Of a DNA stretch of 64,000 bases, positions 1 to 59,620 are shown one piece after another (the stretch's first letter is position 1; every line of letters begins with the position of its first letter). Source of the DNA: Dysidea avara (taxonomy: Eukaryota; Porifera; Demospongiae; Dictyoceratida; Dysideidae); the NCBI RefSeq assembly GCF_963678975.1, contig NC_089281.1, forward strand, positions 4,551,277 to 4,615,276. Reading direction: 5' to 3'. Under the pieces are notes generated by a model. The model did not search any database, was not told the DNA's origin, and saw nothing but the letters and a program-made list of their open reading frames with translations. The position numbers and the translations under genes are program-made.

Positions 1-249
1 GGCTGTGTGACAATGAGAAAACCTAAATCTTGATAAGTTCTGATACCAAAAAAACCATTATTTTTATCACGATAAACAATATTCTCACAAGAGTACCCAT
101 CTGCCTACTTTTAATATGCAATAGTCTATGGATATTTACTATTATTTTATAATAGAGAATCCATTATCATAATTAGCTTTATCATGATAATGACATAGGT
201 ATCACGATAATAGATAATATTGCATTATTGGTATTATTGCACAGCCCTA
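1..249. mobile_element. MITE with GGGCTGTG termini (copy 1, cut by window edge)
   Basis: Right end GTATTATTGCACAGCCCTA is complete; the left end lacks the first few bases. Same element as 5505-5756. The interior is AT-rich with repeated ATCACGATAAT-like motifs. No coding capacity. Confidence 0.7.
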
Positions 250-692
250 ATATATATCTTTTGATGCGATAGAACATCAGTGCAGAAGAATACAGTAAAA
301 CTATCAATAGCCCTATGTTAGTTGACCTACCTGACATGACCACCACATCACAAAGTGATCTCACTAAAGAGGTATCCACTAAGTGAGGTTTAGTGTATGA
401 AAATTACATAGCTTTATTATGATGAATATAAACCATTCATACACAGCTGTACTAAATCTATTGTGTTCACAGATAGTTAAAAGTCAATTGATCATCTAAA
501 CCTAACAACAGTCATTCTGCTGGTTTGATCTGTTTTGAGTCGCACAGACTGATTATTTTTAATGTGATTATATACTTGCTGCATCAAACTTGATTGCAAG
601 TTGCTGCAGTTAAGATGGTACTCCAGTCCCATCAACCCAACTTTCTGAAGTGAATTAATCAGCAGCTCGTATTTGAAATCACTGATCAACAA
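1..692. repeat. Partial array unit 0: MITE tail plus post-MITE segment
   Basis: This is the right-hand part of an array unit cut by the window edge. Positions 1-249 are the MITE lacking only its first few bases; 250-692 match the post-MITE segment at 5757-6195 with few differences by eye. In other units this segment leads to a galectin; here it runs straight into the TMEM-side direct repeat, so no galectin follows for more than 6 kb. No gene is seen here; short open frames such as 492-692 (- strand) recur in other units only because the DNA is repeated. Confidence 0.8.
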
Positions 693-2146
693 TCAAAATG
701 TGAACACTTTCTTCAGTAGCAAACAAATCAATAGTGACTTTCTATTGTGGTGCAAAGTTGTAGGTATACTAGTATGTGTAAATATTTAGTTAAGCCTTTA
801 GTACAGTCAGCAACAAAGTTAAAAATATGATTATATAGTTATCATCTTTGTCTAGTATGGTATTGTCCTAACCTACAGTCCATCATTGGGAGCCTAGCCA
901 ACTTGGTGACCAAACACTCACAATGAACTTATTGACTACTAATGCAGTATACAGTCAGACCAACCATTTTTTGATCTGAATTCAATTCTAATTAAATCTT
1001 GCACTTAATCTCAGTTATCTGGAAATGTACTTTAGTTATACCCAGAAACACACATATGTAGACCACACCGACCACATCAGTGTAAATGACGTTGAATTCA
1101 TGTTACTAATTGACACCAGAGCTTTTAGATATACTTGTAAGCTGCAGGCTGAACATCACTGTTGTAAAATAATTATAAGTAGGGTGAACTAATGAGTAGC
1201 TAAGATTGCATGCCAATATAATTGCCCGATTTCTTTTGCAAGTAATACGTATGTGATAAGAAGACCGAGAAGAGAATATTTTCTAACATTTAGTAGAAAT
1301 CAGTAAAAATTTACAAACACACACTAAGTAATGATTATTATGATGTAAATAAACCAGCATGCATCCAGGTAATAAGGTATATATTAACTAAAAACTTAAA
1401 CGTTCATCATAATTAATTTTATACTTATGGTAAAGAAATGAAATTATATATGATGAAAATGAAAACAAAATTGTGGCTGCTTGACTGTCACTCATCATAC
1501 AGTATGATAGTACTGTATAGTAGGGACCACAAAGGTTTGGGCATGGCCCATGAAAAAACATCACCCAAAAACCAGCCTCACTTTTCTCTGAAAACGATGA
1601 CTTACCAGTGTCCTCCTTTGTGTCTCATTCATCTTTGCTTACAGAGAAAGGTGCCAATTTGGTGGGAGTGTGTAATGGCTTTCCTTCATAATGGAAATCA
1701 TCCAGAGTGGCTACTTTGATTGCAGCGGTGCTTTTCAAACAGTTCTTGATTCGTAATACTGTGTAACGGGTTGAACATAGCCAACAACAAAGACTTCACT
1801 TTTCAGATGATAATTGATAGCTGGGGCATTTGTTTCTTTTGATGCAGTATGCGTGGATTCACCAGTCATAATAATTTTATTTTACAAAAAAGGTAACAGA
1901 CAAGTACGCAAAAATTGGAATTTTCAATGGTCCCTACTCAAGTTGAAAAGTCCAATTTTTTGTGTACTTGTTTGTTCTACAGCACAGGAAGTAGTCAAAA
2001 TACCTTTTGACTACTTCCTGTATACCCTAGAACAAATTAATGATTCAGTGAAAAGTACACAAAAAATTTTGGAATTTTCATAACAATCACACATATATAC
2101 TCTAACTTGCTTGTACACATAAAGGTACCACTCTTCATGCATATAA
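693..2146. repeat. Direct repeat R1, TMEM side (unit 1); chimeric left part
   Basis: R1 begins at TCAAAATGTGAACACTTTC and ends at CATGCATATAA. Every unit has it twice: before the TMEM exons (R1) and before the galectin (R1'). Markers: TMEM side has AGTAGCAATCAAATC, ACCAAC(C/T)ATTTTTTG, a TAATTAAATC insertion and GACCACACCGACCACATC; galectin side has AGTAGCAAACAAATC, ACTACTTTTTG and GACCACATTAGTG. This copy has the galectin-side marker near 717 and TMEM-side markers from about 962 on. It contains a 34 bp hairpin (1987-2022, AGGAAGTAGTCAAAA arms). Other copies: 9386-10815, 18703-19679 (short), 30788-32237, 40136-41112 (short), 52219-53670. Confidence 0.75.
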
Positions 2147-3085
2147 GTTATAGTTATATCCCGCTACGAGGGTGATACCATTGTTATTACACGAGTCCGA
2201 GGCGAAGCCGAGGACGAGTGTAATAACAATGATATCATCCGAGTATACGGGATATAACTATTTTATATTCCAGTGCGCGGGAGTGCGCAGAAGTTTACGG
2301 ATAGTAAATTAAGTTCCGGTTTGAGTTCCTGTCACTGTGCTCAAGATTTCGTCCGAATTGTGTGGAGATTCTACTTCGTATCTACAAGAGAGACCTTACA
2401 TACTGCCTACAAATTGTAGCAGAGGGCGGTGTTATGAAGCAGCGGTTCCAGGTACGATTCGCCTTCGTCAGAAATTGGTATGGTAGTGTCGCGTGGTGTC
2501 ACGTGGTGTCGTGTGGTGTGCAAGAGAAAAATAAAGACCAACAAATGGCTACCATAGTCCGAGATAGAACGATGAAGCTAGAGGAAGTTAGTTCTTCACC
2601 ATAGTGACTGTTGGGAGTGATTGCTGGAGCGAAAATCGTCACGGACTATTCTTGACATTTGTTAAACTATCGTATTGGTAACTTGTAGTGTTATTGTGTA
2701 AAGGATTAACAGTTTTCTTGTAAGATTTAGCTAGTTTTAAGTGCTGTATTGGTGTGTTTTGTATCAGTATTTTCTTATTTGGCTCTTTGTTCCATTGGTA
2801 AACAATGCCATTCGCGGTTATTATGATGTCATGAAAGAGACTGAGTGGCTCCGCAACAGGATGATAACTAATATATCGTACAGTAGCAGCGCCGCTCTGT
2901 CTAGCTGTATGGTAGTTATAACACAGCGCGTCGCTTTGATACTCCCACGCACTACTCCCTCATTTGTGGCATCTCTTATCCTGTTTAGAAGTGTCCACGT
3001 ATATGGTCTGATAGAAATTAAACATTTATTGTTTAAAAACAAAATTACATATACAAGTGTGGAACGTCTACATATACAGCATATC
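2147..3085. mobile_element. Composite foldback-bearing insertion before TMEM exons (unit 1)
   Basis: R1 and R1' are homologous up to CATGCATATAA at 2146; from 2147 the TMEM side carries about 0.94 kb absent from the galectin side. It opens with a 112 bp palindrome (2151-2262): TAGTTATATCCCG is answered by CGGGATATAACTA, and ATTGTTATTACAC by GTGTAATAACAAT, around a GAGGCGAAGCC centre. A GTGCGCGGGAGT motif near 2273 is matched in inverted form near 2945. GC content is higher than the surroundings. The right boundary is uncertain. A 10 bp tandem repeat (GTCGCGTGGT type) lies at 2486-2520. Open frames inside start at GTG and have no family resemblance. Confidence 0.5.
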
Positions 3086-3138
3086 ATACACACATGTATA
3101 TATGTACTATTCCATTTGTGTCAATTATTTATTAACAG

Positions 3139-4166
3139 GATCCTGAGGTGTTATGGCTGGGTGATGTGTGGAGGGAGATACTGTTCTCAGTAGTGTTAGC
3201 AATCTTAATGATACTGTGTCGACCTAAAGATGAATATGGAGGGTATGTACCTCTATGTTGTATTTCTACTGTGTACTATGTTTATAGCAAACAGCTTGTA
3301 TGTGCTAAAAGATGTTAACAATAATACTTTGTAGTTCCAGTTTCCTTTTGTGCTTATGCAGATTCAACAAAATAGTTTATGATTATGAAGATGAACCAGA
3401 ACAAGGAGCAAATAAAAATTTTGGTAAGCAATTTATACCGTCTACACAGCAGTTAGTAAGTGAATTGTCATTTTTGACCTAAAGCCAATAGTGACTGAAA
3501 TATATGTGATTTTCATGACGTCATGTCATACCCCGTGATGTACCCCTTAGAGACATACACAGGTGAATTTTGGTAGGCAGTAGACCATAGCTTAAGCCTC
3601 CAGTATTGTCAGATAGTATTGTGAGAATTGATCATGGTCAATTGATCCTTCTCACAAAATTATAAACTACAATATTTAAGGATGTTCACATCTTGTGTTT
3701 CATGTATGTGTCATGTGCAGTTGTATGCACATATTTTATAAGCATTTTGTATTCCCTCTCAGATACCATTGTAATGCGCCAACTTCCAAAAGAAACTGCC
3801 GATACTGAGAAATTCAAAGAAGTAAAAATTATGTCGCATGTTTGTAGTATATGTGTTTCATTATGTGCTCTTCTTTACCACATTTTCTGTTCTACACACT
3901 TTTTGCTTGCCAGATGACTCCAATTTTTTTAACGTTTCAGAATTATGTACTGCAAAATTGATATTTATGTGGTTTATCTGTATATGTATGAATGTGTATG
4001 TACATCCTGGGGGTACATATATGCAGTTACATCATTAGGCATACAGCCTAACAAGTCCCTGCTAAAGTATATACATTAATAGATAGTTTGCGTATATGTA
4101 TGCATGACCCATGTACTATAATATTGTTATTTTCATTTGTTATAGACCCCTGAAGAGAACATGTGA
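3139..4166 (+). CDS. TMEM87-like C-terminal exons (partial gene copy 1)
   Basis: Four small exons with GT-AG borders read as one 81-residue C terminus: 3139-3242, 3362-3423, 3763-3821 and 4146-4166 (TGA). Phases agree across all three introns (2, 1, 0); the third donor (GTAAAA) is weak. The first exon gives W-L-G-D-V-W-R-E followed by a hydrophobic helix (LFSVVLAILMIL) and a C-R-P, then an acidic cytoplasmic tail (YDYEDEPEQ) and a short K/E-rich end. The W-x-LFS...IM.L-RP pattern resembles the last membrane helix of TMEM87/GOST-type Golgi membrane proteins; that name is by eye and tentative. No upstream exon of such a protein is visible in the preceding 3 kb, so this is either the 3' end of a gene starting outside the window or a 3'-only duplicate. 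Confidence 0.42.
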
Positions 4167-4439
4167 TGACACTTCAGTTCAAGCAATGCCAAAAAGTCAT
4201 AGGAACTTGTAACCAAGAACAATTTTCAAATTTGCTGTTAAACAGTATAATGAGATTACATGATCAACTGGTGGATCTCTCATACTGCACAGAGCACACT
4301 TGAAATGATGAATAGATATAATGATATAATTAAACCCAACAGTACTTTCAGAATGTAACCCGAAATGCTTCCTATAAATTATGTTTTTTTAAATTTATTT
4401 CTGTTGGCTGACTAACTTACCAGACAAGCATAACTCAAC

Positions 4440-4745
4440 AACAGCTATAGCTAGAGGACCTTTTCGTACTGTTCTTCATTTGTAGTGGTGTGTAGGAGGC
4501 TGAACATAATGTAGCTGAAATGAAGTGTAATGGCAACTTGCACACGTTCAGACACAAAATTAATTTTATGATACATGTATATGTCTAATGCCATTCTTTC
4601 TTTTGATGTGGTATGCCGGGTTCACCAGTTATAATTATGCTAACAAACAAGTATAAGCCGAATCCCATTATTTGTTATGAACTACATGTACATTTTGTAG
4701 GAAATTTGATACACTTGAATAGTCTCACTACTATGCTCATTATAG
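4440..4745 (+). repeat. Inverted partner of galectin upstream DNA (unit 1)
   Basis: This part of the TMEM 3' flank, including CTTTTGATGTGGTATG and ACAAACAAGTATAAGC, matches 8160-8440 read on the opposite strand; about 160 bp of it is very similar by eye. Each unit therefore holds an inverted pair about 3.7 kb apart that encloses the MITE, R1' and the galectin. The equivalent pair recurs in the other units. Confidence 0.65.
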
Positions 4746-4954
4746 AAATATGTGTACAAGTAATTATTGTCTGCATGGTGCAAATAGATCAAGTCTTGTT
4801 GTGTACATCATATCTGTGTGTAGAGCTTTATACAAGTAGGCTAGCTCTACACAATACAATGCACTCTTAAATGTAATGAACTATACATTATCATATGTAT
4901 ATTAGTGACTGATGAACTGTTAGTTATTATACAGGGGCAGTGTTATCATATGGG

Positions 4955-5440
4955 CAGTAGGGATCATGAAGGTTTGTACTTTCCTGCTATGAAATGTCAA
5001 TCAACAACTAGCATCACCTTTCCTTCACGACAATTTGACAGTATTGGTTAGGTGTTGTAAGCAAGCCTGAAATGAAGTTTCTATGGAATTTTAAACATTA
5101 TTTTCCTTTTAGCTGAATTGACTAATTGTAACTCACTGTTACCTCTGGCCAAGCATAACTTGACTATAATGCTACCGGCTTGGTTTCTTCTTGTGCTGTT
5201 TGACATTGCTTAGGCTCAAAATGTGCCTTTTCATTTATGTCTGTGCAGCTACAATGAACTTACTGTGTTCCATTTCTTTCTCCATGCACTACCATGTAGG
5301 TGTTGTTATAGGTAGCATGTCAGTTTTCTTGTGGTGGTTATCACAATTAAATAAATATTGTGGATTGATTGCAGAGGTACTTTCTTGTACTGTTTTGCAC
5401 TGTGTGTCAAGCAGAACGTAGCTGAAGAAACAAGCCACTC
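4955..5440. repeat. Diverged copy of the dispersed repeat that also makes up R1
   Basis: GTAGGGATCATGAAGGTTTG... CTTTCCTTCACGACAA... CAAGCATAACTTGACTATAATG... AAAATGTGCCTTTT parallels the R1 order GTAGGGACCACAAAGGTTTG... CTTTTCCCTGACAACAA... CAAGCTTAACTCAATAATGG... ATATGTGCCTTTT. The match is old and gapped. Together with 4380-4700 this suggests that most non-coding DNA of each unit derives from one dispersed family. Present in every unit. Confidence 0.5.
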
Positions 5441-5504
5441 AGTAAGTGACAGTTAAGTTGGAGTGCATGCTCTTTCAGATACACAATTAATTTATGATAT
5501 GTTG

Positions 5505-5756
5505 TAGGGCTGTGTGACAATGAGAAAACCTAAATCTTGATAAGTTCTGATACCAAAACAACCATTATTTTTATCACGATAAACAATATTCTCACAAGAG
5601 TACCCATCTGCCTACTTTTAATATGCAATAGTCTATGGATATTTACTATTATTTGATAATAGAGAAACCATTATCATAATTAGCTTTATCATGATAATGA
5701 CATAGGTATCACGATAATAGATAATATTGCATTATTGGTATTATTGCACAGCCCTA
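5505..5756. mobile_element. MITE with GGGCTGTG terminal inverted repeats (copy 2)
   Basis: A ~250 bp non-autonomous DNA element. Left end TAGGGCTGTGTGACAAT and right end ATTATTGCACAGCCCTA are inverted repeats of about 17 bp with mismatches. The outermost TA at both ends could be a TA target duplication or part of the repeat. The interior carries short inverted ATCACGATAAT/ATTATCGTGAT motifs. Ends of this sort (GGGCTGTG) are frequent in hAT-like families, but TA flanks would fit other superfamilies, so the family is left open. Confidence 0.7.
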
Positions 5757-6195
5757 ATATATATCTTTTGATGCGATAGAACATCAGTGCAGAAGATACA
5801 GTAAAACTATCAATAGCCCTACGTTAGTTGACCTACCTGACATGACCACCACATCACAAAGTGATCTCACTAAAGAGGTATCCACTAAGTGAGGTTTAGT
5901 GTATGAAAATTACATAGCTTTATTATGATGAATATAAACCATTCATACACAGTACTAAATCTATTGTGTTCACAGATAGTTAAAAGTCAATTGATCATCT
6001 AAACCTAACAACAGTCATTCTTCTGGTTTGATCTGTTTTGAGTCGCACAGACTGATTATTTTTAATGTGATTATATACTTGCTGCATCAAACTTGATTGC
6101 AAGTTGCTGCAGTTAAGATGGTACTCCAGTCCCATCAACCCAACTTTCTGAAGTGAATTAATCAGCAGCTCGTGTTTGAAATCACTGATCAACAA

Positions 6196-7249
6196 TCAAA
6201 ATGTGAACACTTTCTTCAGTAGCAAACAAATCAATAGTGACTTTCTATTGTGGTGCAAAGTTGTAGGTATACTAGTATGTGTAAATATTTAGTTAAGCCT
6301 TTAGTACAGTCAGCAACAAAGTTAAAAATATGATTATATAGTTATCATCTTTGTCTAGTATGGTATTGTCCTAGCCTACAGTCCATCATTGGGAGCCTAG
6401 CCAACTTGGTGACCAAACACTCACAATGAACTTATTGACTACTAATGCAGTATACAGTCAGACCAACTACTTTTTGATCTGAATTCAATTCTAAATCTTG
6501 CACTTAATCTCAGTTATCTGGAAATGTACTTTAGTTATACCTAGAAACACACATATGTAGACCACATTAGTGTAAATGACATGTGGCTTTGAGTTCAAGT
6601 TACTATTTGACACCAAAACTTTTAGATAATTATACTTGCAGGCTGCAGCTGAACATCACTCAGTGTTGTAAAATAATTAAGTAGGGTGAACTAATGTGAT
6701 TCAGAAGATTGAGAAGAGAATATTTTCTAACATTTAGCAGAAATCATTTTAACCACAATCTAAGTAATGATTATTATGATGTAAATAAACCAGCATGCAT
6801 CCAGGTGATAAGGTATATATTAACTAAAAACTTAAACGTTCATCATAATTAATTTTATACTTATGGTAAAGAAATGAATCATACATGATGAAAATGAAAA
6901 CTAAATTGTGGCTGCTTGACTGTCACTCATCATACAGTATGATAGTACTGTATAGTAGGGACCACAAAGGTTTGGGCATGGCCCATGAAAAAACATCACC
7001 CAAAAACCAGCCTCACTTTTCCCTAACAACAATGAAACAGGTAAAACTAAGCCCAAACAAGCCTTCAGATCAACCCAAAGTGCTTTCAACAAGTTGCTAT
7101 AAAATTTTATTAAACGGAATTTTCTAGTGATTGATTAACTAAGTAAATGACTGATGTCTTCATGTAGACAAGCTTAACTCAATAATGGCTAAAGCTACAG
7201 ACTTGATTGTTCACTGTTCAACGTTGCTTCCACTCTTCATGCATATAAA
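6196..7249. repeat. Direct repeat R1', galectin side (unit 1)
   Basis: Galectin-side partner of R1, here with about 0.57 kb missing at about 7220 (GTTGCTTC joined to CACTCTTCATGC). Full-length copies lie at 14902-16559, 22988-24652, 36332-37984, 44421-46083 and 57765-59424. Direct repeats of 1.0-1.6 kb flanking a gene are a ready substrate for unequal crossing-over. Confidence 0.75.
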
Positions 7250-7566
7250 TTGCTTTATTTATTTACCATCCCTAGGAACTTGAATAGGTCACTAAATTCT
7301 AAACTACGTATTAGCTAGCTATAGACCAGTAAACATAAAATTAATGGTATAATAGTGAGACAACTGTTCAGGTCAGCACAAAAAGTGATGTGTATAAAAA
7401 ATGGCCCGGCTAGGATCATCACCCTCTAATCCCTGTAAGTTCAGTAAACTTTAGTACAGTTTGGATCAAATACATACTACAACATGACATAATGTAATAA
7501 CATATACAAACTATCTACAACTATTTGCATTGTCCAGTCAATCTATAAAGTCTTTGTTTAGTCATT

Positions 7567-8007
7567 TCACTCAGCAAGGTTGAACTTGACTGCAAGATAC
7601 TTCAGAACAGCTGGTGTACCATGGCCAGAACCCATGGACCAATCAAACTTGGCTGTTGTGATGTTGGAAATACGTAGCCCAGACTTATAATCATGAAACT
7701 GTTTACCATCAAGTAAAATTTTAATGTAATCATCTTTAGCAATGAATGTAACAGTGACATCTTCCCTTCCTTTAAAATCATATCCATCAACTCTTTGTGG
7801 TTTCTCCCCTCGTTGATATGGCCATTTTCCATCTATTTGTGATGAAATTACCACTTCTCTTTCATCAAAGCGAGGATTGAAGTGAAGAATGATATCTTCC
7901 TTATCATTGTACAAGTCTATTTTCACCCTTCCTTCCTTGGGGTTGGTGTAGGCTGCCTCTATACCTCTGCCAGTTTGGAAGTTGGTAAAGCTAATACTGT
8001 TTTCCAT
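7567..8007 (-). CDS. Galectin, single-domain, variant 1
   Basis: Complete intronless ORF of 146 aa, ATG to TGA, with no signal peptide, as expected for galectins that leave the cell by a non-classical route. It is one carbohydrate-recognition domain of usual prototype length. The beta-strand signature H42-F-N-P-R46 and the stacking tryptophan W62 are present. By eye, the usual Asn seven residues before Trp is Ser55, and the usual Glu three residues after Trp is Gln65, with Arg at 66 rather than two residues later, so sugar specificity may differ from mammalian galectins. Family knowledge: galectins bind beta-galactosides; sponge members are ~16 kDa lectins, some with effects on animal receptors. 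A TATAAAAG box lies about 75 bp upstream; a possible AATAAA lies about 310 bp past the stop (near 7254). Variant-specific residues: K29, E37, D77, K96, N115. It converges on the TMEM87-like exons. Confidence 0.88.
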   Translation of the reverse strand: MENSISFTNFQTGRGIEAAYTNPKEGRVKIDLYNDKEDIILHFNPRFDEREVVISSQIDGKWPYQRGEKPQRVDGYDFKGREDVTVTFIAKDDYIKILLDGKQFHDYKSGLRISNITTAKFDWSMGSGHGTPAVLKYLAVKFNLAE

Positions 8008-8062
8008 TTGTAACTCGTATATCTGTCAGTAGTGATGCTATCCACAGAGTAGTTCATATACT

Positions 8063-8088
8063 CTATATAAAAACAGTCTCCTTTTATA
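8063..8088 (-). promoter_or_regulatory. TATA-type core promoter of galectin variant 1
   Basis: On the - strand TATAAAAG (8081-8088) lies about 75 bp before the ATG, and a second TATATAG-like box (8063-8073) about 55 bp before it. With the usual ~30 bp spacing, transcription would start near 8050 and leave a 5' leader of about 45 nt. Both boxes are kept in all five galectin copies. Confidence 0.6.
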
Positions 8089-8159
8089 CACAACAAACTG
8101 TGTAGAGAGTTTCATGAGGTGACTGATTCTTGGGAGTGTGTATTTTTTGCAGCTGTCAG

Positions 8160-8440
8160 ATGAGATTTCCATTGCATAGTATTGAGACTATTCAAGTGTA
8201 TCAAATTTCCTAGAAAATGTACATGTAGTACATAACAAATAATGGAATCCAGCTTATACTTGTTTGTTAACATAATTATAATTGGTGAACTTGGGATACC
8301 ACATCAAAAGAAAGAATGTCATTATATCTATGTGTGTGCTTCATCAACTACTGAAAAGAGAAGTCACCATTACACTGTTCAACCTGCCACACACCATTAC
8401 AAATGAAGAACAGTACAAGAAGCACCTTCGTCTTTTGGGC
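8160..8440 (-). repeat. Inverted partner of TMEM 3' flank, upstream of galectin (unit 1)
   Basis: Reverse-complement match of 4440-4745. It begins about 80 bp beyond the galectin TATA box, so the distal galectin promoter region is built from the same repeat as the TMEM 3' flank. The short open frames here on both strands (8282-8467, 8344-8562) come from this repeat and are not supported as genes. Confidence 0.6.
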
Positions 8441-10815
8441 TTAATTAATACTGCCAAGGTGCTGTGAAGATATTGCGAGGCCAGTTTCTGGTCAATGTAT
8501 TTTGTGAGAAAGTGCAACTCCCCCTGATCCTTATAATATGCAGCTGTATGACAATACTTCAACTACAACATAACTACTACAACACGATAAACACTTAAGA
8601 ACATATAAAGGTGTAGGCATATTGAAATCTATGCAGCTGGGGTAGTGATTTTTGTGTTAGAGATGTTTTATTATATAATAAATATATATATATGATACTT
8701 CTTTGGGTGATGTTGGACTCGCCAAATTTGATCGGCAAGTGATAGCTAAGGCTCCTCCACCATGATTGGATGCCACTTAGTTCTTATATGTACAATGGAG
8801 ACACATTGACAAATTTTCGTTTATCTGCTATTATACGCTACATGTGTGTTGCTAAATATTCTGGAATTTTGTATAAATGCGACAATGCAGTCATAAACTA
8901 TAGTCCAGAGACAGTTATAATACTTTTCAAATCTCAGTGAAAATGTCAGACAACCTAAACCATTACCTGACATTGATATGCTACTGTTTTACACAATTCG
9001 TCATAATAGGAAAATCCTTACAATACATTGATAGAATAGAGTGACTCAACCTATAATAATGTAATCATTGTTGCCTAATTGCGTTTGCTATTATTGACAA
9101 TGCTTCACTATAAAAACTCTACAACTTCCTTCTATTTTGATCTGACATTTTGTCAGGCAGGTTCCATTATGGTCAGCCATGCATGATATTTGCCTGACAA
9201 ATGGCCTATGTCAGGCAGTAATAATTGACTCTGAACTATACTGGTGTAGACCGTGTATAGTGTTCTATATTTGAAGTGTTTTCAGTGTGAAATACGAGCA
9301 GTGTCAGCAATAAAGATGTAGAGGGGCAGTCAGCAATGTTATGTTTTATCATACAGCATGATGGTAATGATGTACTGACCAGCAGTCAAAATGTGAACAC
9401 TTTCTTCAGTAGCAATCAAATCAATAGTGACTTTCTATTGTGGTGCAAAGTTATAGGTATACTAGTATGTGTAAATATTTAGTTAAGCCTTTAGTACAGT
9501 CAGCAACAAAGTTAAAAATATGATTATATAGTTGTCATCTTTGTCTAGTATGGTATTGTCCTAACCTACAGTCCATCATTGGGAGCCTAGCCAACTTGGT
9601 GACCAAACACTCACAATGAACTTATTGACTACTAATGCAGTATACAGTCAGACCAACCATTTTTTGATCTGAATTCAATTCTAATTAAATCTTGCACTTA
9701 ATCTCAGTTATCTGGAAATGTACTTTAGTTATACCCAGAAACACACATATGTAGACCACACCGACCACATCAGTGTAATTGACACCAGAGCTTTTAGATA
9801 TACTTGTAAGCTGCAGGCTGAACATCACTGTTGTAAAATAATTATAAGTAGGGTGAACTAATGAGTAGCTAAGATTGCATGCCAATATAATTGCCCGATT
9901 TCTTTTGCAAGTAATACGTATGTGATAAGAAGACCGAGAAGAGAATATTTTCTAACATTTAGTAGAAATCAGTAAAAATTTACAAACACACACTAAGTAA
10001 TGATTATTATGATGTAAATAAACCAGCATGCATCCAGGTAATAAGGTATATATTAACTAAAAACTTAAACGTTCATCATAATTAATTTTATACTTATGGT
10101 AAAGAAATGAAATTATATATGATGAAAATGAAAACAAAATTGTGGCTGCTTGACTGTCACTCATCATACAGTATGATAGTACTGTATAGTAGGGACCACA
10201 AAGGTTTGGGCATGGCCCATGAAAAAACATCACCCAAAAACCAGCCTCACTTTTCTCTGAAAACGATGACTTACCAGTGTCCTCCTTTGTGTCTCATTCA
10301 TCTTTGCTTACAGAGAAAGGTGCCAATTTGGTGGGAGTGTGTAATGGCTTTCCTTCATAATGGAAATCATCCAGAGTGGCTACTTTGATTGCAGCGGTGC
10401 TTTTCAAACAGTTCTTGATTCGTAATACTGTGTAACGGGTTGAACATAGCCAACAACAAAGACTTCACTTTTCAGATGATAATTGATAGCTGGGGCATTT
10501 GTTTCTTTTGATGCAGTATGCGTGGATTCACCAGTCATAATAATTTTATTTTACAAAAAAGTTAACAGACAAGTACGCAAAAATTGGAATTTTCAATGGT
10601 CCCTACTCAAGTTGAAAAGTCCAATTTTTTGTGTACTTGTTTGTTCTACAGCACAGGAAGTAGTCAAAATACCTTTTGACTACTTCCTGTATACCCTAGA
10701 ACAAATTAATGATTCAGTGAAAAGTACACAAAAAATTTTGGAATTTTCATAACAATCACACATATATACTCTAACTTGCTTGTACACATAAAGGTACCAC
10801 TCTTCATGCATATAA

Positions 10816-11753
10816 GTTATAGTTATATCCCGCTACGAGGGTGATACCATTGTTATTACACGAGTCTGAGGCGAAGCCGAGGACGAGTGTAATAACAATG
10901 ATATCATCCGAGTATACGGGATATAACTATTTTATATTCCAGTGCGCGGGAGTGCGCAGAAGTTTACGGATAGTAAATTAAGTTCCGGTTTGAGTTCCTG
11001 TCACTGTGCTCAAGATTTCGTCCGAATTGTGTGGAGATTCTACTTCGTATCTACAAGAGAGACCTTACATACTGCCTACAAATTGTAGCAGAGGGCGGTG
11101 TTATGAAGCAGCGGTTCCAGGTACGATTCGCCTTCGTCAGAAATTGGTATGGTAGTGTCGCGTGGTGTCACGTGGTGTCGCGTGGTGTGCAAGAGAAAAA
11201 TAAAGACCAACAAATGGCTACCATAGTCCGAGATAGAACGATGAAGCTAGAGGAAGTTAGTTCTTCACCATAGTGACTGTTGGGAGTGATTGCTGGAGCG
11301 AAAATCGTCACGGACTATTCTTGACATTTGTTAAACTATCGTATTGGTAACTTGTAGTGTTATTGTGTAAAGGATTAACAGTTTTCTTGTAAGATTTAGC
11401 TAGTTTTAAGTGCTGTATTGGTGTGTTTTGTATCAGTATTTTCTTATTTGGCTCTTTGTTCCATTGGTAAACAATGCCATTCGCGGTTATTATGATGTCA
11501 TGAAAGAGACTGAGTGGCTCCGCAACAGGATGATAACTAATATATCGTACAGTAGCAGCGCCGCTCTGTCTAGCTGTATGGTAGTTATAACACAGCGCAT
11601 CGCTTTGATACTCCCACGCACTACTCCCTCATTTGTGGCATCTCTTATCCTGTTTAGAAGTGTCCACGTATATGGTCTGATAGAAATTAAACATTTATTG
11701 TTTAAAAACAAAATTACATATACAAGTGTGGAACGTCTACATATACAGCATAT
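10816..11753. mobile_element. Composite foldback-bearing insertion (unit 2)
   Basis: Co-duplicated copy; palindrome at 10820-10931, 10 bp tandem repeat at 11155-11189 with the same repeat number as unit 1. No supported gene. Confidence 0.5.
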
Positions 11754-11807
11754 CATACACACATGTATATATGTACTATTCCATTTGTGTCAATTATTTA
11801 TTAACAG

Positions 11808-46840: not shown

Positions 46841-46895
46841 TTGTAACTCGTATATCTGTCAGTAGTGATGCTATCCACAGAGTAGTTCATATACT

Positions 46896-48400: not shown

Positions 48401-51092
48401 TTATTCTGTAGGGAATTCAGCTACAAACAAGTCACCCTGTAGTCAGATCAGCTAGAAGAAGGTACCTAATAGAGAGTTCAGCTACAAAGAAGCCATCATG
48501 TAGAGAGTTCAGCTACAAACAAATTGCCCTGTAGAGAGATCAACTAGAAGAAGTTACCTTGTAGAGAGTTCAGTTACAAAGAAACAATCATGCAAAGAGT
48601 TTAGCTGCAAATAAATCACCCAGTAGAAAGTTCCGCTATGAACAGATAACACTGTAGAGAGTTCAGTTAGAAACAAGTCATCCTGTAGATAGATCAGCTA
48701 GAAGAAGTCACTTTGTAGAGAGTTCAGCTACAAAGAAACCACCATGTAAGAGAGTTCAGATGCAAACAAATCACCCTGTAGAGAGTTCAGCTAGGAACAA
48801 GTCACCCTGTACAGAGATCAGCTAGAAACAAGTCACCCTGTAGAGAGTTCAGCTAGAAGAAGTTACATTGTAGAGAGTTCAGCTACAAAGAAACTACCAT
48901 GTAGAGAGTTCAGCTGCAAACAAATCGCCCTGTAGAGAATCCAGCTACAAACAAATCACCCTGTAGAAAGATCAGCCAGAAGAAGTTACCTTGTAGAGAG
49001 TTCAGCAACAAACAAATCACCCTGTAGAGAGTTCAGCTAGAAACAAGTCACCCTGTAGAGAGTTCAGCTAGAAGAAGTTACATTGTAGAGAGTTCAGCTA
49101 CAAAGAAACTACCATGTAGAGAGTTCAGCTACAAACAAGTCACCCTGTAGAGAGTTCAGCTAGAAGAAGTTACATTGTAGAGAGTTCAGCTACAAAGAAA
49201 CTACCATGTAGAGAGTTCAGCTGCAAACAAATTTCCCTGTAGAGACAAACAAATCACCCTGTAGAAAGATCAGCTAGAAGACGTTACCTTGTAGAGAGTT
49301 CAGCTACAAACAAGTCACCCTGTAGAGAGTTCAGCTAGAAGAAGTTACATTGTAGAGAGTTCAGCTACAAAGAAACTACCATGTAGAGAGTTCAGCAGCA
49401 AACAAATTGCCCTGTAGAGAATTCAGCTACAGACAAATCACCTTGTAGAAAGATCAGCTAGAAGAAGTTACCTTGTAGAGAGTTCAGTTACAAACAAATC
49501 ACCCTGTAGAGAGTTCAGCTAGAAACAAGTCACCCTGTAGAGAGATCAGCTAGAAACAAGTCACCCTGTTGAGAGTTCAGCTAGAAGAAGTTACCTTGTA
49601 GAGAGTTCAGCTACAAACAAATCACCCTGTAGAAAGATCAGCTAGAAGAAGTTACCTTGTAGAGAGTTCAGCTACAAACAAATCACCCTGTAGAAAGATC
49701 AGCTAGAAGAAGTTACCTTGTAGAGAGTTCAGCTACAAACAAGCCACCCTGTAGAGAGTTCAGCTAGAAGAAGTTACATTGTAGAGAGTTCAGCTACAAA
49801 GAAACTACCATGTAGAGAGTTCAGCAGCAAACAAATTTCCCTGTAGAGAATTCAGCTACAGACAAATCACCTTGTAGAAAGATCAGCTAGAAGAAGTTAC
49901 CTTGTAGAGAGTTCAGCTACAAACAAATCACCCTGTAGAGAGTTCAGCTAGAAACAAGTCACCCTGTAGAGAGTTCAGCTAGAAGAAGTTACATTGTAGA
50001 GAGTTCAGCTACAAAGAAACTACCATGTAGAGAGTTCAGCTGCAAACAAATTTCCCTGTAGAGACAAACAAATCACCCTGTAGAAAGATCAGCTAGAAGA
50101 CATTACCTTGTAGAGAGTTCAGCTACAATCAAATCACCCTGTAGAGAGTTCAGCTAGAAACAAGTCACCCTGTAGAGAGATCAGCTAGAAACAAGTCACC
50201 CGTAGAGAGTTCAGCTAGAAGAAGTTACATTGTAGAGAGTTCAGCAGCAAACAAATCGCCCTGTAGAGAATTCAGCTACAAACAAATCACCCTGTAGAAA
50301 CATCAGCTAGAAGAAGTTACCTTGTAGAGCGTTCAGCTACAAACTAATCACCCTGTAGAGAGTTCAGCTAGAAACAAGTTACCCTGTAGAGAGTTCAGCT
50401 AGAAGAAGTTACATTGTAGAGAGGTCAGCTACAAAGAAACTACAATGTAGAGAGTTCAGCTGCAAACAAATTGCCCTGTAGAGACAAACAAATCACCCTG
50501 TAGAAAGATCAGCTAGAAGAAGTTACCTTGTAGAGAATTTAGTTACAAACAAATCACCCAGTAGAGAGTTCAGCTAGAAACAAGTTACACTGTAGAGAGA
50601 TGAGCTAGAAACAAGTCACCCTGTAGAGAGTTCAGCTAGAAGAAGTCACATTGTAGAGAGTTCAGCTACAAAGAAACTACCATGTAGAGAGTTCAGCTGC
50701 AAACAAATTGCCCTGTAGAGAATTCAGCTAGAAACAAATCACCCTGTAGAAAGATCAGCTAGAAGAAGTTACCTTGTAGAGAGTTCAGCTAGAAACAAAT
50801 CACCCTGTAGAGAGTTCAGCTAGAAACAAGCCACCCGTAGAGAGTTCAGCTAGAAGAAGTTACATTGTAGAGAGTTCAGCAGTTTAGCTGCAAACAAATC
50901 GCCCTGTAGAGAATTCAGCTACAAACAAATCACCCTGTAGAAAGATCAGCTAGAAGAAATTACCTTGTAGAGAGTTCAGCTACAAACAAATCACCCTGTA
51001 GAGAGTTCAGCTACAAACAAGTCATCCGGTAGAGAGATCAGCTAGAAGGATCACCTTGCAGAGAGGTCAGCTACAAAGAAATCACCCTGCTT
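48401..51092. repeat. ~31 bp minisatellite with higher-order structure (unit 5)
   Basis: The same array at an offset of 21431, with the same length and the same order of variants as far as I could follow. Confidence 0.85.
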
Positions 51093-51196
51093 CATCTTTT
51101 CTTCTTCCTGTAGTAAAGAAAAAATGACAGGTTAAAAAGCCCTAAAGCCGGCCATATGCCGGCTTTGGGGTATACAAATACAAAAAGAAGTGAAGT

Positions 51197-51520
51197 CTAA
51201 TCCAAAACAGCCAAGCTGTAAAAAAAGAGTGCGGCCCTGAGAAAGGCTATGGTGAAAAAAGATGTGAAATCCAAGGTGGCGGCCAAGAAATGGCTGTGAT
51301 GGTAGGTTAATGGTAAAAATTTTAATAACAACAATTCAGGTGAATTTGGTGCCGCTTGGTCTTGGCACAAAATTCACTTGAATTGTTGTTATTAAAACTT
51401 TTACCATTAACCTACCATCACAGCCATTTCTTGGCCGCCACCTTGGATTTCACATCTTTTTTCACCATAGCCTTTCTCAGGGCCGCACTGTTTTTTTACA
51501 GCTTGGCTGTTTTGGATTAG
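51197..51520. repeat. 324 bp long hairpin at right end of insertion (unit 5)
   Basis: Same hairpin: arms 51197-51353 and 51364-51520, same 10 bp spacer. Confidence 0.8.
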
Positions 51521-53670
51521 ATATATATATGATACTTCTTTGGGTGATGTTGGACTCGCCAAATTTGATTGGCAAGTGATAGCTAAGGCTCCTCCACCAT
51601 GATTGGATGCCACTTAGTTCTTATACAATGGAGACACATTGACAAATTTTCGTTTATCTGCTATTATACGCTACATGTGTGTTGCTAAATATTCTGGAAT
51701 TTTGTATAAATGTGACAATGCAGTCATAAACTATAGTCCAGAGACAGTTATAATACTTTTCAAATCTCAGTGAAAATGTCAGACAACCTAAACCATTACC
51801 TGACATTGATATGCTACTGTTTTACACAATTTGTCATAATAGGAAAATCCTTACAATACATTGATAGAATAGAGTGACTCAACCTATAATAATGTAATCA
51901 TTGTTGTCTAATTGCGTTTGCTATTATTGACAATGCTTCACTATAAAAACTCTACAACTTCCTTCTATTTTGATCTGACATTTTGTCAGGCAGGTTCCAT
52001 TATGGTCAGCCATGCATGATATTTGCCTGACAAATGGCCTATGTCAGGCAATAATAATTGACTCTGAACTATACTGGTGTAGACCGTGTATAGTGTTCTA
52101 TATTTCAAGTGTTTTCAGTGTGAAATACGAGCAGTGTCAGCAATAAAGATGTAGAGGGGCAGTCAGCAATGTTATGTTTTATCATACAGCATGATGGTAA
52201 TGATGCACTGACCAGCAGTCAAAATGTGAACACTTTCTTCAGTAGCAATCAAATCAATAGTGACTTTCTATTGTGGTGCAAAGTTGTAGGTACTAGTATT
52301 TGTAAATATTTAGTTAAGCCTTTAGTACAGTCAGCAACAAAGTTAAAAATATGATTATATAGTTATCATCTTTGTCTAGTATGGTATTGTCCTAGCCTAC
52401 AGTCCATCATTGGGAGCCTAGCCAACTTGGTGACCAAACACTCACAATGAACTTATTGACTACTAATGCAGTATACAGTCAGACCAACTATTTTTTGATC
52501 TGAATTCAATTCTAATTAAATCTTGCACTTAATCTCAGTTATCTGGAAATGTACTTTAGTTATACCCAGAAACACACATATGTAGACCACACCGACCACA
52601 TCAGTGTAAATGACGTTGAGTTCATGTTACTAATTGACACCAGAGCTTTTAGATATACTTGTAAGCTGCAGGCTGAACATCACTGTTGTAAAATAATTAT
52701 AAGTAGGGTGAACTAATGAGTACCTAAGATTGCATGCCAATAAAATTGGCCGATTTCTTTTGCAAGTATTACGTATGTGATAAGAAGACTGAGAAGAGAA
52801 TATTTTCTAACATTTAGTAGAAATCAGTAAAAATTTACAAACACACACTAAGTAATGATTATTATGATGTAAATAAACCAGCATGCATCCAGGTAATAAG
52901 GTATATATTAACTAAAAACTTAAACGTTCATCATAATTAATTTTATACTTATGGTAAAGAAATGAAATTATATATGATGAAAATGAAAACAAAATTGTGG
53001 CTGCTTGACTGTCACTCATCATACAGTATGATAGTACTGTATAGTAGGGACCACAAAGGTTTGGGCATGGCCAATGAAAAAACATCACCCAAAAACCAGC
53101 CTCACTTTTCTCTGAAAACGATGACTTACCAGTGTCCTCCTTTGTGTCTCATTCATCTTTGCTTACAGAGAAAGGTGCCAATTTGGTGGGAGTGTGTAAT
53201 GGCTTTCCTTCATAATGGAAATCATCCAGAGTGGCTACTTTGATTGCAGCGGTGCTTTTCAAACAGTTCTTGATTCGTAATACTGTGTAACGGGTTGAAC
53301 ATAGCCAACAACAAAGACTTCACTTTTCAGATGATAATTGATAGCTGGGGCATTTGTTTCTTTTGATGCAGTATGCGTGGATTCACCAGTCATAATAATT
53401 TTATTTTACAAAAACGTTAACAGACAAGTACGCAAAAATTGGAATTTTCAATGGTCCCTACTCAAGTTGAAAAGTCCAATTTTTTGTGTACTTGTTTGTT
53501 CTACAGCACAGGAAGTAGTCAAAATACTTTTTGACTACTTCCTGTATACCCTAGAACAAATTAATGATTCAGTGAAAAGTACACAAAAAATTTTGGAATT
53601 TTCATAACAATCACACATATATACTCTAACTTGCTTGTACACATAAAGGTACCACTCTTCATGCATATAA

Positions 53671-54611
53671 GTTATAGTTATATCCCGCTACGAGGGTGAT
53701 ACCATTGTTATTACACGAGTCCGAGGCGAAGCCGAGGACGAGTGTAATAACAATGATATCATCCGAGTATACGGGATATAACTATTTTATATTCCAGTGT
53801 GCGGGAGTGCACAGAAGTTTACGGATAGTAAATTAAGTTCCGGTTTGAGTTCCTGTCACTGTGCTCAAGATTTCGTCCGAATTGTGTGGAGATTCTACTT
53901 CGTATCTACAAGAGAGACCTTACATACTGCCTACAAATTGTAGCGGAGGGCGGTGTTATGAAGCAGCGGTTCCAGGTACGATTCGCCTTCGTCAGAAATT
54001 GGTATGGTAGTGTCGCGTGGTGTCACGTGGTGTCGCGTGGTGTCGCGTGGTGTGCAAGAGAAAAATAAAGACCAACAAGTGGCTACCATAGTCCAAGATA
54101 GAACGATGAAGCTAGACGAAGTTAGTTCTTCACCATAGTGACTGTTGGGAGTGATTGCTGGAGCGAAAATCGTCACGGACTATTCTTGACATTTGTTAAA
54201 CTATCGTATTGGTAACTTGTAGTGTTATTGTGTAAAGGATTAACAGTTTTCTTGTAAGATTTAGCTAGTTTTAAGTGCTGTATTGGTGTGTTTTGTATCA
54301 GTATTTTCTTATTTGGCTCTTTGTTCCATTGGTAAACAATGCCATTCGCGGTTATTATGATGTCATGAAAGAGACTGAGTGGCTCCGCAACAGGATGATA
54401 ACTAATATATCGTACAGTAGCAGCGCCGCTCTGTCTAGCTGTATGGTAGTTATAACACAGCGCATCGCTTTGATACTCCCACGCACTACTCCCTCATTTG
54501 TGGCATCTCTTATCCTGTTTAGAAGTGTCCACGTATATGGTCTGATAGAAATTAAACATTTATTGTTTAAAAACAAAATTACATATACAAGTGTGGAATG
54601 CCTACATATAC
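53671..54611. mobile_element. Composite foldback-bearing insertion (unit 6)
   Basis: Co-duplicated copy; palindrome at 53675-53786; 10 bp tandem repeat at 54010-54053 expanded as in unit 4. Confidence 0.5.
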
Positions 54612-54670
54612 AGTATCATACACACATGTATATATGTACTATTCCATTTGTGTCAATTATTTATTAACAG

Positions 54671-55697
54671 GATCCTGAGGTGTTATGGCTGGGTGATGTG
54701 TGGAGGGAGATACTGTTCTCAGTAGTGTTAGCAATCTTAATGATACTGTGTCGACCTAAAGATGAACATGGAGGGTATGTACCTCTATGTTGTATTTCTA
54801 CTGTGTACTATGTTTATAGCAAACAGCTTGTATGTGCTAAAAGATGTTAACAATAATACTTTGTAGTTCCAGTTTCCTTTTGTGCTTATGCAGATTCAAC
54901 AAAATAGTTTATGATTATGAAGATGAACCAGAACAAGAAGCAAATAAAAAATTTGGTAAGCAATTTATACCGTCTACACAGTAGTTAGTAAATGAATTGT
55001 CATTTTTGACCTAAAGCCAATAGTGACTGAAATATACGTGATTTTCTGACGTCATGTCATACCCCGTGATGTACCCCTTAGAGACATACACAGGTGAATT
55101 TTGGTAGGCAGTAGACCATAGCTTAAGCCTCCAGTATTGTCAGATAGTATTGTGAGAATTGATCATGGTCAATTGATCCTTCTCACAAAATTATAAACTA
55201 CAATATTTAAGGATGTTCACATCTTGTGTTTCATGCATGTGTCATGTGCAGTTGTATGCACATATTTTATAAGCATTTTGTATTCCCTCTCAGATACCAT
55301 TGTAATGCGCCAACTTCCAAAAGAAACTGCCGATACTGAGAAATTCAAAGAAGTAAAAATTATGTCGCATGTTTGTAGTATATGTGTTTCATTATGTGCT
55401 CTTCTTTACCACATTTTCTGTTCTACACAATTTTTGCTTACCAGATGACTCCAATTTTTTTAACGTTTCAGAATTATGTACTGCAAAATTGATATTTATG
55501 TGGTTTATCTGTATATGTATGAATGTGTATGTACATCCTGGGGGTACATATATGTAGTTACATCATTAGGCATACAGCCTAACAAGTCCCTGCTAAAGTA
55601 TATACATTAATAGATAGTTTGCGTATATGTATGCATGACCCATGTACTATAATATTGTTATTTTCATTTGTTATAGACCCCTGAAGAGAACATGTGA
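54671..55697 (+). CDS. TMEM87-like C-terminal exons (partial gene copy 6)
   Basis: Exons 54671-54774, 54894-54955, 55294-55352 and 55677-55697, partner of copy 4. It adds one change of its own in the second exon (Gly to Glu in the acidic tail). Open with borders kept. No galectin follows, because the array ends at 59620. Confidence 0.4.
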
Positions 55698-57046
55698 TGA
55701 TACTTCAGTTCAAGCAATGCCATAAAGTCATAGGAACTTGTAACCAAGAACAATTTTCAAATTTGCTGTTAAACAGTATAATGAGATTACATGATCAACT
55801 GGCGGATCTCTCATACTGCACAGAGCACACTTGAAATGATGAATATAGATATAATGATATAATTAAACCCAACAGTGCTTTCAGAATGTGACCCAAAATG
55901 CTTCCTATAAATTATGTTTTTTAAAATTTATTTCTGTTGACTGACTAACTTACCAATGCCTTCAGACAAGCATAACTCAACAACAGCTATAGCTAGAGGA
56001 CCTTTTCGTACTGTTCTTCATTTGTAGTGGTGTGTAGGAGGCTGAACATATGTAGCTGAAAATGAAGTGTAATGGCAACTTGCACACGTTCAGACACAAA
56101 ATTAATTTTATGATACATGTATATGTCTAATGCCATTCTTTCTTTTGATGTGGTATGCCGGGTTCACCAGTTATAATTATGCTAACAAACAAGTATAAGC
56201 CGAATCCCATTATTTGTTATGTACTACATGTACATTTTGTAGGAAATTTGATACACTTGAATAGTCTCACTACTATACTCATTATAGAAATATGTGTACA
56301 AGTAATTATTGTCTGCATGGTGCAAATAGATCAAGTCATGTTGTGTACATCATATCTGTGTGTAGAGCTTTATACAAGTAGGCTAGCTCTACACAATACA
56401 ATGCACTCTTAAATGTAATGAACTATACATTATCATATGTATATTAGTGACTGATGAACTGTTAGTTATTATACAGGGGCAGTGTTATCATATGGGCAGT
56501 AGGGATCATGAAGGTTTGCACTTTCCTGCCATGAAATGTCAATCAACGACTAGCATCACCTTTCCTTCACAACAATTTGACAGTATTGGTTAGGTGTTGT
56601 AAGCGAGCCTGAAATGAAGTTTCTATGAAATTTTAAACATTATTTTCCTTTTAGCTGAATTGACTAATTGTAACTCACTGTTACCTCTGGCCAAGCATAA
56701 CTTGACTATAATGCTACAGGCTTGGTTTCTTCTTGTGCTGTTTGACATTGCTTAGGCTCAAAATGTGCCTTTTCATTTACCTCTGTGCAGCTACAATGAA
56801 CTTACTGTGTTCCATTTCTTTCTCCATGCACTACCGTGTAGGTGTTGTTATTGGTAGCATGTCAGTTTTCTTGTGGTGGTCATCACAATTAAATATATAT
56901 TGTGGATTGATTGCAGAGGTACTTTCTTGTACTGTTTTGCACTGTGTGTCAAGCAGAACGTAGCTGAAGAAACAAGCCATTCAGTAAGTGACAGTTAAGT
57001 TGGAGTGCATGCTTTTTCAGATACACAATTAATTTATGATATGTTT

Positions 57047-57299
57047 TAGGGCTGTGTGACAATGAGAAAACCTAAATCTCGATAAGTTCTGATAACAAAA
57101 AAACCATTATTTTTATCACGATAAACAATATTCTCACAAGAGTACCCATCTGCCTACTTTTAATATACAATAGTCTATGGATATAATTTTATTATTTGAT
57201 AATAGAGAAACCATTATCATAATTAACTTTATCATGATAATGACATAGGTATCACGATAATAGATAATATTGCATTATTGGTATTATCGCACAGCCCTA
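57047..57299. mobile_element. MITE with GGGCTGTG termini (copy 7)
   Basis: Same element and position in unit 6, right terminus of the ATTATCGCACAGCCCTA type as in units 2 and 4. Confidence 0.7.
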
Positions 57300-59620
57300 A
57301 TATGTTTAACACATTCTATATCCTTTGATGCGATAGAACATCAATGCAGAAGAATACAGTAAAACTATCAATAGCCTTACGTTAGTTGACCTACCTGACA
57401 TGACCACCACATCACAAAGTGATCTCACTATAGAGGTATCCACTAAGTGAGATTTAGTGTATGAAAATTACATAGCTTTTATTATGATGAATGTAAAGTT
57501 CTATAAACCATTCATACACAATACTAAATCTATTGTGTTCACAGATAGTTAAAAGTCAATTGATCATCTACACCTAACAACAGTCATTCTGCTGGTTTGA
57601 TCTGTTTTGAGTCACACAGACTGATTATTTTTAATGTGATTATATACTTGCTGCATCAAACTTGATTGCAAGTTGCTGCAGTTAAGATGGTACTCCAGTC
57701 CCATCAATCCAACTTTCTGAAGTGAATTAATCAGCAGCTCGTATTTGAAATCACTGATCAATAATCAAAATGTGAACACTTTCTTCAGTAGCAAACAAAT
57801 CAATAGTGACTTTCTATTGTGGTGCAAAGTTGTAGGTATACTAGTATGTGTAAATATTTAGTTAAGCCTTTAGTACAGTCAGCAACAAAGTTAAGAATTA
57901 TTATAATTGTCATCTTTGTCTAGTATGGTATTGTCCTAGCCTACAGTCCATCATTGGGAGCCTAGCCAACTTGGTGACCAAACACTCACAATGAACTTAT
58001 TGACTACTAATGCAGTATACAGTCAGACCAACTACTTTTTGATCTGAATTCAATTCTAAATCTTACACTTAATCTCAGTTATCTGGAAATGTACTTTAGT
58101 TATACCTAGAAACACACATATGTAGACCACATTAGTGTAAATGACATGTGGCTTTGAGTTCAAGTTACTATTTGACACCAAAACTTTTGGATAATTATAC
58201 TTGCAGGCTGAACATCACTGTTGTAAAATAATTAAGTAGGGTGAACTAATGAGTAGCTAAGATAGCCAATAAACTTTTGCAAATATTACGTATGTGATTC
58301 AGAAGATTGAGAAGAGAATATTTTCTAACATTTAGCAGAAATCATTTTAACCACAATCTAAGTAATGATTATTATGATGTAAATAAACCAGCATGCATCC
58401 AGGTAATAAAGGTATATATTAACTAAAAACTTAAACGTTCATCATAATTAATTTTATACTTATGGTAAAGAAATGAATTATACATGATGAAAATGAAAAC
58501 TAAATTGTGGCTGCTTGACTGTCACTCATCATACAGTATGATAGTACTGTATAGTAGGGACCACAAAGGTTTGGGCATGGCCCATGAAAAAACATCACCC
58601 AAAAACCAACCTCACTTTTCCCTAACAACAATGAAACAGGTAAAACTAAGCCCATACAAGCCTTCAGATCAACCCAAAGTGCTTTCAACAAGTTGCTATA
58701 AAATTTTATTAAACGGAATTTTCTAGTGATTGATTAACTAAGTAAATGACTGATGCCTTCATGTAGACAAGCTTAACTCAATAATGGCTAAAGCTACAGA
58801 CTTGATTGTTCACTGTTCAACGTTGCTTCAGCTGATATGCGCCTTTTGGCATACCACAGTACATACAATGTATTCTTCATGGACTTACCAGTGTCCTCCT
58901 TTGTGTCTCATTCATCTTTGCTTACAGAGAAAGGTGCCAATTTGGTGGTAGTGTATAATGGCTTCCCTTCATAATGGAAATCATCCAAAGTGGCTACTTT
59001 GATTGCAGCGGTGCTTTTCAAACAGTTCTTGATTCGTAATGCTGTGTAATGGGTTGAACATAGCCAACAACAAAGACTTCACTTTTCAGACGATAATTAA
59101 TAGCTGGGGCATTTCTTTCTTTTGATGCGGTATGTGTGGGTTCACCAGTCATAATAGTTTTATTTTACAAAAAAAAAGCTAACAAACAAATACACACAAA
59201 AAATGGAATTTTCAATGGTCCCTTGCTCAAGTTGAAAAGTCCAAATTTTTATTGTGTACTTGTTTGTTATGCGGTAGTCAAAATACTATTTGACTACTTC
59301 CTGTATACACCTAGAACAAACTAATGATTGACAAGTATACAAAAAATTTGGAATTTTCATAACAATCACATATACTTTAATTTGCTTGTACACATATAAG
59401 GTACCACTCTTCATGCATATAAATTGCTTTATTTATTTACCATCCCTAGGAACTCGAATAAGGGCAATAAATTCTAAACTATGTATTAGCTAGCTATAGA
59501 CCAGTAAACATAAAATTAATGGTATAATAGTGAGACAACTGTTCAGGTCAGCACAAAAAGTGATGTGTATAAAAAATGGCCCAGCTAGGATCATCACTCT
59601 CTAATTCCTGTAAGTTCAGT

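Follow-up and report, generated by a model that had tools for sequence, protein, structure and literature searches.

Higher-order repeats of the alpha-satellite type consist of alternating unit types that are repeated together as a block. Among coding genes, most haplotypes of the human AMY1 (salivary amylase) locus are reported to vary in steps of two gene units, the unit being ~95 kb long and carrying two inverted AMY1 copies (PMC4498156). Proto-type galectins of sponges are 140–193 residues long according to a review (PMC13084444). Here, we describe a 64,000-base stretch of DNA (the window; G+C 35.8%, no N) in which positions 1–59620 form six head-to-tail units, all in one order and orientation, carrying a galectin gene and the end of a TMEM87-like gene. 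With good, though not full, confidence, the locus is read as a tandem galectin array that arose through unequal crossing-over and gene conversion and was copied in two-unit blocks, the TMEM87-like fragment probably being a passenger. The galectin and the GT–AG introns suggest that the DNA is eukaryotic and most probably from an animal.

Six Units of Two Alternating Types

The units (U1–U6, Table 1) were delimited by mapping the window on U2, taken as the reference unit; "ref" coordinates denote positions within U2. Self-BLAST of the window placed 8684–38181 on 30090–59620 in a single alignment of 29,562 columns with 99.15% identity. Both results bear out the common order that a sequence-only reading of this DNA had proposed for the six units. 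The uniformity of the parts requires some qualification: all six units follow the order, but U1 is without ~570 bp of R2 (the second of two internal repeats described below), U3 and U5 are without ~1.4 kb, and U6 ends at 59620, before its galectin. Gene-bearing units following one another head to tail, with a galectin open reading frame (ORF) in five of the six, make the locus a tandem gene array.

The units fall into type A (U2, U4 and U6) and type B (U3 and U5), with a super-period of 21.41–21.43 kb. Two super-units are complete, and a third starts at 51521 and ends unfinished at 59620; about 2.4 blocks are thus visible in the window. Pairwise differences were computed without ref 1655–3080, the foldback interval in which MAFFT had aligned unrelated sequences. 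The six A–B pairs differ by 1.89–2.21%, in contrast with 0.78–1.34% for the three A–A pairs and 0.18% for the single B–B pair (U3/U5). Of the two-letter sites for which every unit could be scored, 44 set U2, U4 and U6 apart from U1, U3 and U5, and 32 set U3 and U5 apart from the others. Furthermore, a 184-bp foldback-bearing stretch and a 3,994-bp insertion are exclusive to U3 and U5.

The alternation of types A and B is real, and chance is excluded as its cause. The two types, the ~21.4-kb super-unit and the restriction of both structural marks to U3 and U5 had all been put forward by the sequence-only reading, and each was recovered here. From the alternation together with the marks restricted to type B, it follows that a two-unit block was copied (or duplicated in assembly). 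Units that correspond across blocks resemble each other more closely than units of the same block do, which is the hallmark of a higher-order repeat; many blocks homogenized end to end are not seen, with about 2.4 blocks and a divergence of 0.07% in one part of the array against 1.29% in the rest.

A 10-bp tandem repeat, GTGTCGCGTG, is present in 3.4 copies in U1 (2486–2519) and U2 (11155–11188), and in 4.4 copies in U4 (32577–32620) and U6 (54010–54053). This difference in copy number is a further mark that divides the A-type units.

Structural Marks of the B Units

In U3 and U5, 184 bp stand in place of 1.4 kb. The foldback core of this stretch was found at 19700 and 41133 only within the window, and 135 nt of it gave a folding z of −7.9, compared with 1.0 for one control stretch.

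The insertion that follows each B unit is largely a minisatellite with a 31-bp unit (consensus CTGTAGAGAGTTCAGCTACAAACAAATCACC, repeated about 88 times with 75% matches), located at 48406–51089 in the second copy. The insertion closes with a foldback that reaches exactly to the unit boundary and whose two arms are 157 bp long, 97% complementary and separated by 10 nt; the second copy has the same kind of end, at 51520. This terminal foldback resembles a miniature inverted-repeat transposable element (MITE-like). At the opposite end, a perfect hairpin with 7-base arms and a 4-base loop (26099–26116) was seen by eye four bases inside the left border, and any target-site duplication amounts to at most 2 bp, within an AT run. 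A pair of 92-bp gaps between the two insertions proved to be an alignment artefact, direct comparison giving 2 mismatches in 3,994 bases. Weak Pfam matches inside the insertion (HC2 twice, Extensin_1 twice and PIF2 once, the last at E 1.1e-4) were rejected as matches to repeat composition, because all were below the cut-offs and lay within the minisatellite. No match was obtained for three shorter forms of the minisatellite in an exact search of public genome and viral contigs, for the insertion foldback in scans of public contigs, or, in the literature, for a stretch of 18 letters taken from the minisatellite.

Uneven Divergence and the Timing of the Duplication

Along the 21.4-kb diagonal, the stretch from ~18.9 kb (R1 of U3) to ~36.5 kb (R2 of U4) contains 12 mismatches in 17,608 aligned bases (0.07%), as opposed to 153 in 11,856 (1.29%) over the rest, with steps near R1 and R2. 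The limits of this near-identical stretch were set by eye, which makes the Fisher p (2e-46) look somewhat better than it should; the same step is present in a per-kb table. The 17.6 kb extend from U3 into U4 and thus fall short of a complete A+B block. Between U2 and U4, 97 of 9,296 positions (1.04%) differ and there are 15 indels, whereas U3 and U5 differ at only 14 of 8,089, so that the halves of the block appear to differ in age.

Because divergence along the diagonal is uneven, a single clean A+B duplication is insufficient. The proposal of the sequence-only reading that a two-unit block was duplicated last is therefore retained in part: a block was copied (or duplicated in assembly), but not in one simple A+B event. 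Judging from the pattern of differences, the last event may have copied the block in B-then-A phase, or later exchange may have overwritten parts of U2, U4 and U6.

The same figures bear on whether the super-unit is an assembly artefact. If two haplotypes or looped reads had been placed in tandem, the true array would be real but shorter (for example, U1, A, B and the A edge unit). Many long reads are about as long as the near-identical 17.6 kb, the patchy divergence is of the kind expected between two haplotypes, and taking out one 21.4-kb period would erase the higher-order pattern and leave at least four units. However, in addition to the differences of U4 from U2, a comparison of R2 between U4 and U6 shows 45 mismatches over 1,686 bases, so a verbatim loop does not account for the additional block. 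Moreover, types A and B are 1.9–2.2% apart and separated by two structural marks, which does not agree with their being simply two alleles of a single unit. We consider such a false duplication unlikely, while giving it some weight.

Internal Repeats as Likely Sites of Exchange

Each unit contains two direct repeats of ~1.5 kb, R1 and R2, that are about 89–90% alike; shortened forms occur in U1, U3 and U5. They are the likely sites of exchange. At the left edge of the window, sequence that elsewhere precedes R2 joins R1 directly, which is not a normal unit start. Positions 1–690 are 98.6% identical to the sequence left of R2 in U1, 97.4% in U3 and U5 and 93.1% in the A units. This joint is as expected from a misaligned R2–R1 exchange in which one galectin was lost.

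U1 is a mosaic of the two types. Its 89 A/B-informative sites are distributed as 17 A and 1 B over ref 691–4100, 7 A, 46 B and 1 other over ref 4101–6400, and 13 A and 4 B over ref 6401–9321. At the other end of the array, R2 of U6 bears many private differences, as expected for an edge unit. Conversion from R1 was considered as the main cause of R2 divergence. Among 69 polymorphic sites in R2, the letter most frequent in R1 is in the minority in R2 at 13, matches the R2 majority at 53 and is neither at 3; the 13 sites indicate that R1-to-R2 conversion accounts for little. A handful of neighbouring sites common to R1 of U4 and R2 of U4 and U6 may be a short conversion tract.

A separate 156-bp inverted repeat (91%) has one arm after the TMEM87-like tail (13258–13413 in U2) and the other upstream of the galectin (17492–17647). 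It recurs in U1, U3, U4 and U5.

The Galectin Gene

The galectin ORF comprises 152 codons on the minus strand, with the first ATG at codon 7. All five copies remain open up to the same TGA, and the gene appears as a complete ORF in which no intron is seen. The U2 copy belongs to the Gal-bind_lectin family (Pfam PF00337.29; E 3.4e-15, 56.1 bits against a cut-off of 22.1, profile positions 15–118 of 132), and the remaining four copies lie at most 7 bases from U2 or from each other. A phmmer search of PDB with the U1 copy returned 79 distinct sequences at E ≤ 0.01, and the best 60 of the 79 all bear the name galectin or LEC-6. A search of viral contigs for relatives of the gene gave one stretch that matched a pattern and none that passed tblastn.

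The conserved residues of the galectin sugar site are H-N-R, N, W, E and R. On the phmmer alignment, the array galectin retains HFNPRF and W, with S in place of N and Q in place of E; given these two replacements, its sugar binding may be altered.

The five copies vary at eight sites, five nonsynonymous and three synonymous (out of some 361 and 95 such sites, respectively), and encode three protein variants. An array favoured by selection for galectin dose or variety, like arrays of genes for immunity or diet, with R1/R2 exchange tuning the copy number, would agree with the five open ORFs and their three variants, with a TATA-like box seen by eye ~83 bp upstream of the U2 ATG and with a convergent TMEM87 part that is merely a fragment. 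The 5:3 ratio gives no clear sign of constraint or diversification, and one joint and one edge unit are without galectin. Selection is a rather improbable explanation. A further reading, to which we assign very little probability, is a fast-turnover array, possibly of an early-branching animal. Exchange at R1 and R2 would then change galectin copy number in one- and two-unit steps and shuffle galectin variants among individuals, forming a repertoire for immunity or self-recognition.

The TMEM87-Like Tail

Convergent to the galectin ORF, each repeated segment contains four plus-strand exons with GT–AG borders, whose reading frame (81 codons, followed by a stop) is unbroken in each of the six units. 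The first exon, which resembles transmembrane helix 7 (TM7), is 39% identical over 41 columns, part of them intron, to a fragment of human TMEM87A (E 0.002 in the 64-kb window). This probe did not include the GOLD domain, and divergent exons could escape it. The TM7 exon was matched in six of six units at 30.0–30.4 bits; the next matches, on the opposite strand and judged to be chance, reached 25.8 bits. On this evidence, the name TMEM87 is applied tentatively to the four-exon tail.

No exons for TM1–TM6 or other parts of TMEM87 were found with Pfam, phmmer or the human fragment. A six-frame Pfam search of 9000–18003 gave no TMEM87 family: the three plus frames matched no family at all, and galectin was the sole match, in one of the three minus frames. 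Similarly, phmmer with the three plus frames against PDB returned nothing at E 0.1, the TM7 exon included. A TMEM87 (GOST) protein would combine a GOLD domain and seven helices in one frame; what is found is the TM7 exon and three tail exons. As no further part was found, the unit carries the end of the gene only, and the tails are probably passenger fragments. The galectin/TMEM87-like array of the sequence-only reading consequently holds for the galectin, which looks whole in five of six units, but for TMEM87 it is reduced to the last four exons, in all six.

The tails could still be functional if fused or alternative transcripts, starting from exons further upstream in the unit, terminated in them, and the four exons with intact borders and a single open frame in every unit would favour this. 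Nevertheless, TM1–TM6 exons did not emerge from the searches, the TM7 match is itself weak, and differences between U2 and U3 are no rarer in the exons (4 of 245 bases) than over exons and introns together (15 of 1,026). At such low power, these counts appear to indicate neither constraint nor diversifying selection. A function for the tails seems highly improbable, and we retain their reading as probable passengers.

Proposed History of the Array

Any history of the locus has to accommodate the six units, the two types, their shared marks, the mosaic U1, the recombinant left joint and the uneven divergence, all of which are read directly from the window. A pathway of unequal crossing-over and gene conversion would connect them in the following inferred order. 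Misaligned exchange between copies would first create and resize the array. Type B would then acquire the foldback-bearing replacement and the 3,994-bp mobile-element-like insertion. Unequal crossing-over at the A+B distance would duplicate both types, giving the 21.4-kb period. Finally, later exchange, mostly in R2 and the start of R1, would replace parts of the A units and leave the outermost units as recombinants. The likely effect of the array is a larger number of galectin copies.

Several points weigh against this history. A clean single duplication predicts that U2 and U4 be as alike as U3 and U5, which the counts given above (97 of 9,296 against 14 of 8,089) contradict. The private R2 variants of U4 and U6 have no donor in the window, and conversion from R1, with 13 of 69 sites, was rejected as their main source. 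The left joint could alternatively be an old arrangement in which the R–T block was itself repeated. The differences of U4 from U2 and U6 could also fit two haplotypes in tandem, and the second super-unit is, as the sequence stands, based on the assembly alone. Moreover, at a ratio of 5:3 and with low power, neither coding constraint nor diversifying selection appears evident in the galectin.

Feature Coordinates and Flanking Sequence

Table 1. Positions of the units, repeats, insertions and gene parts of the array in the window.
Feature	Coordinates	Strand	Remarks
U1	1–8683	+	starts inside preceding partial unit; A/B mosaic; without about 570 bp of R2
U2, type A	8684–18004	+	reference unit, 9,321 bp
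U3, type B	18005–26095	+	without about 1.4 kb
U4, type A	30090–39434	+	
U5, type B	39435–47526	+	without about 1.4 kb
U6, type A	51521–59620	+	stops at ref 8073, before galectin; right edge of array
Super-unit 1 (U2 + U3 + insertion)	8684–30089	+	21,406 bp
Super-unit 2 (U4 + U5 + insertion)	30090–51520	+	21,431 bp
Foldback-bearing stretch in U3, 184 bp	19678–19861	.	replaces ref 1663–3068; second copy in U5, core at 41133
Insertion after U3, 3,994 bp	26096–30089	.	minisatellite 26975–29658; foldback 29766–30089
Insertion after U5, second copy	47527–51520	.	2 mismatches to the first
R1 of U2	9374–10815	+	
R2 of U2	14890–16559	+	about 89–90% like R1; extra ~240 bp
Recombinant joint	1–1600	+	1–690 matches sequence left of R2, then R1 (96.7–98.3%)
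TMEM87-like last four exons, U1	3139–4166	+	
TMEM87-like last four exons, U2	11808–12834	+	11808–11911, 12031–12092, 12431–12489, 12814–12834
TMEM87-like last four exons, U3	19919–20945	+	
TMEM87-like last four exons, U4	33238–34264	+	
TMEM87-like last four exons, U5	41352–42378	+	
TMEM87-like last four exons, U6	54671–55697	+	
Galectin ORF, U1	7570–8025	−	TGA next
Galectin ORF, U2	16881–17336	−	ATG at 17318
Galectin ORF, U3	24972–25427	−	
Galectin ORF, U4	38306–38761	−	
Galectin ORF, U5	46403–46858	−	

A reverse transcriptase fragment lies shortly beyond the right end of the array (61019–61390; RVT_1, E 2.7e-6, 27.7 bits, below the cut-off of 29.6). ARAGORN detected no genes, and no Rfam match reached the gathering scores.

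Comparison with Known Systems

As it stands, the array is an ordinary tandem duplication. Its interest lies in being a compact case, in which an insertion, a block duplication, exchange between internal repeats and a diverging edge unit are legible in one sequence. It also calls for caution in annotation, which should treat neither the five near-identical galectins nor the six TMEM87 tails as so many independent genes before reads have confirmed the copies. If copy number varies in the population, lectin dose could be tied to structural variation. A literature search on coding arrays with higher-order structure gave no paper matching all terms, and the locus was not described among the matches listed for galectin arrays and sponge galectins.

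The array shares with alpha-satellite-type repeats the blockwise repetition of alternating unit types; it differs in its gene-bearing units of 8–9 kb, its small number of blocks (about 2.4) and its uneven divergence. In relation to the seven-helix TMEM87/GOST proteins, the TM7 exon resembles the human fragment, but the tail comprises just the 81 C-terminal codons, and neither the GOLD domain nor TM1–TM6 was found. Like proto-type galectins, including those of sponges, the array galectin has a single carbohydrate-recognition domain, a length of 146 residues counted from the ATG and the LHFNPRF motif; it differs, on the phmmer alignment, in having S for the N of V-x-N and Q for the E after W.

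The sequence-only reading had regarded a coding array with higher-order structure as unusual. This is a weak claim, given the ~2.4 super-units seen here and the precedent of AMY1, whose variable units of two genes indicate that two-unit blocks in coding arrays were already known (PMC4498156). The AMY1 unit differs in its 95-kb length and inverted copies, compared with 21.4 kb and direct copies here, and AMY1 was confirmed by fibre-FISH (fibre fluorescence in situ hybridization) and segregation (PMC4498156). The two loci are alike in being coding arrays whose unit holds two gene copies, lying beside parts of genes or pseudogenes (PMC4498156).

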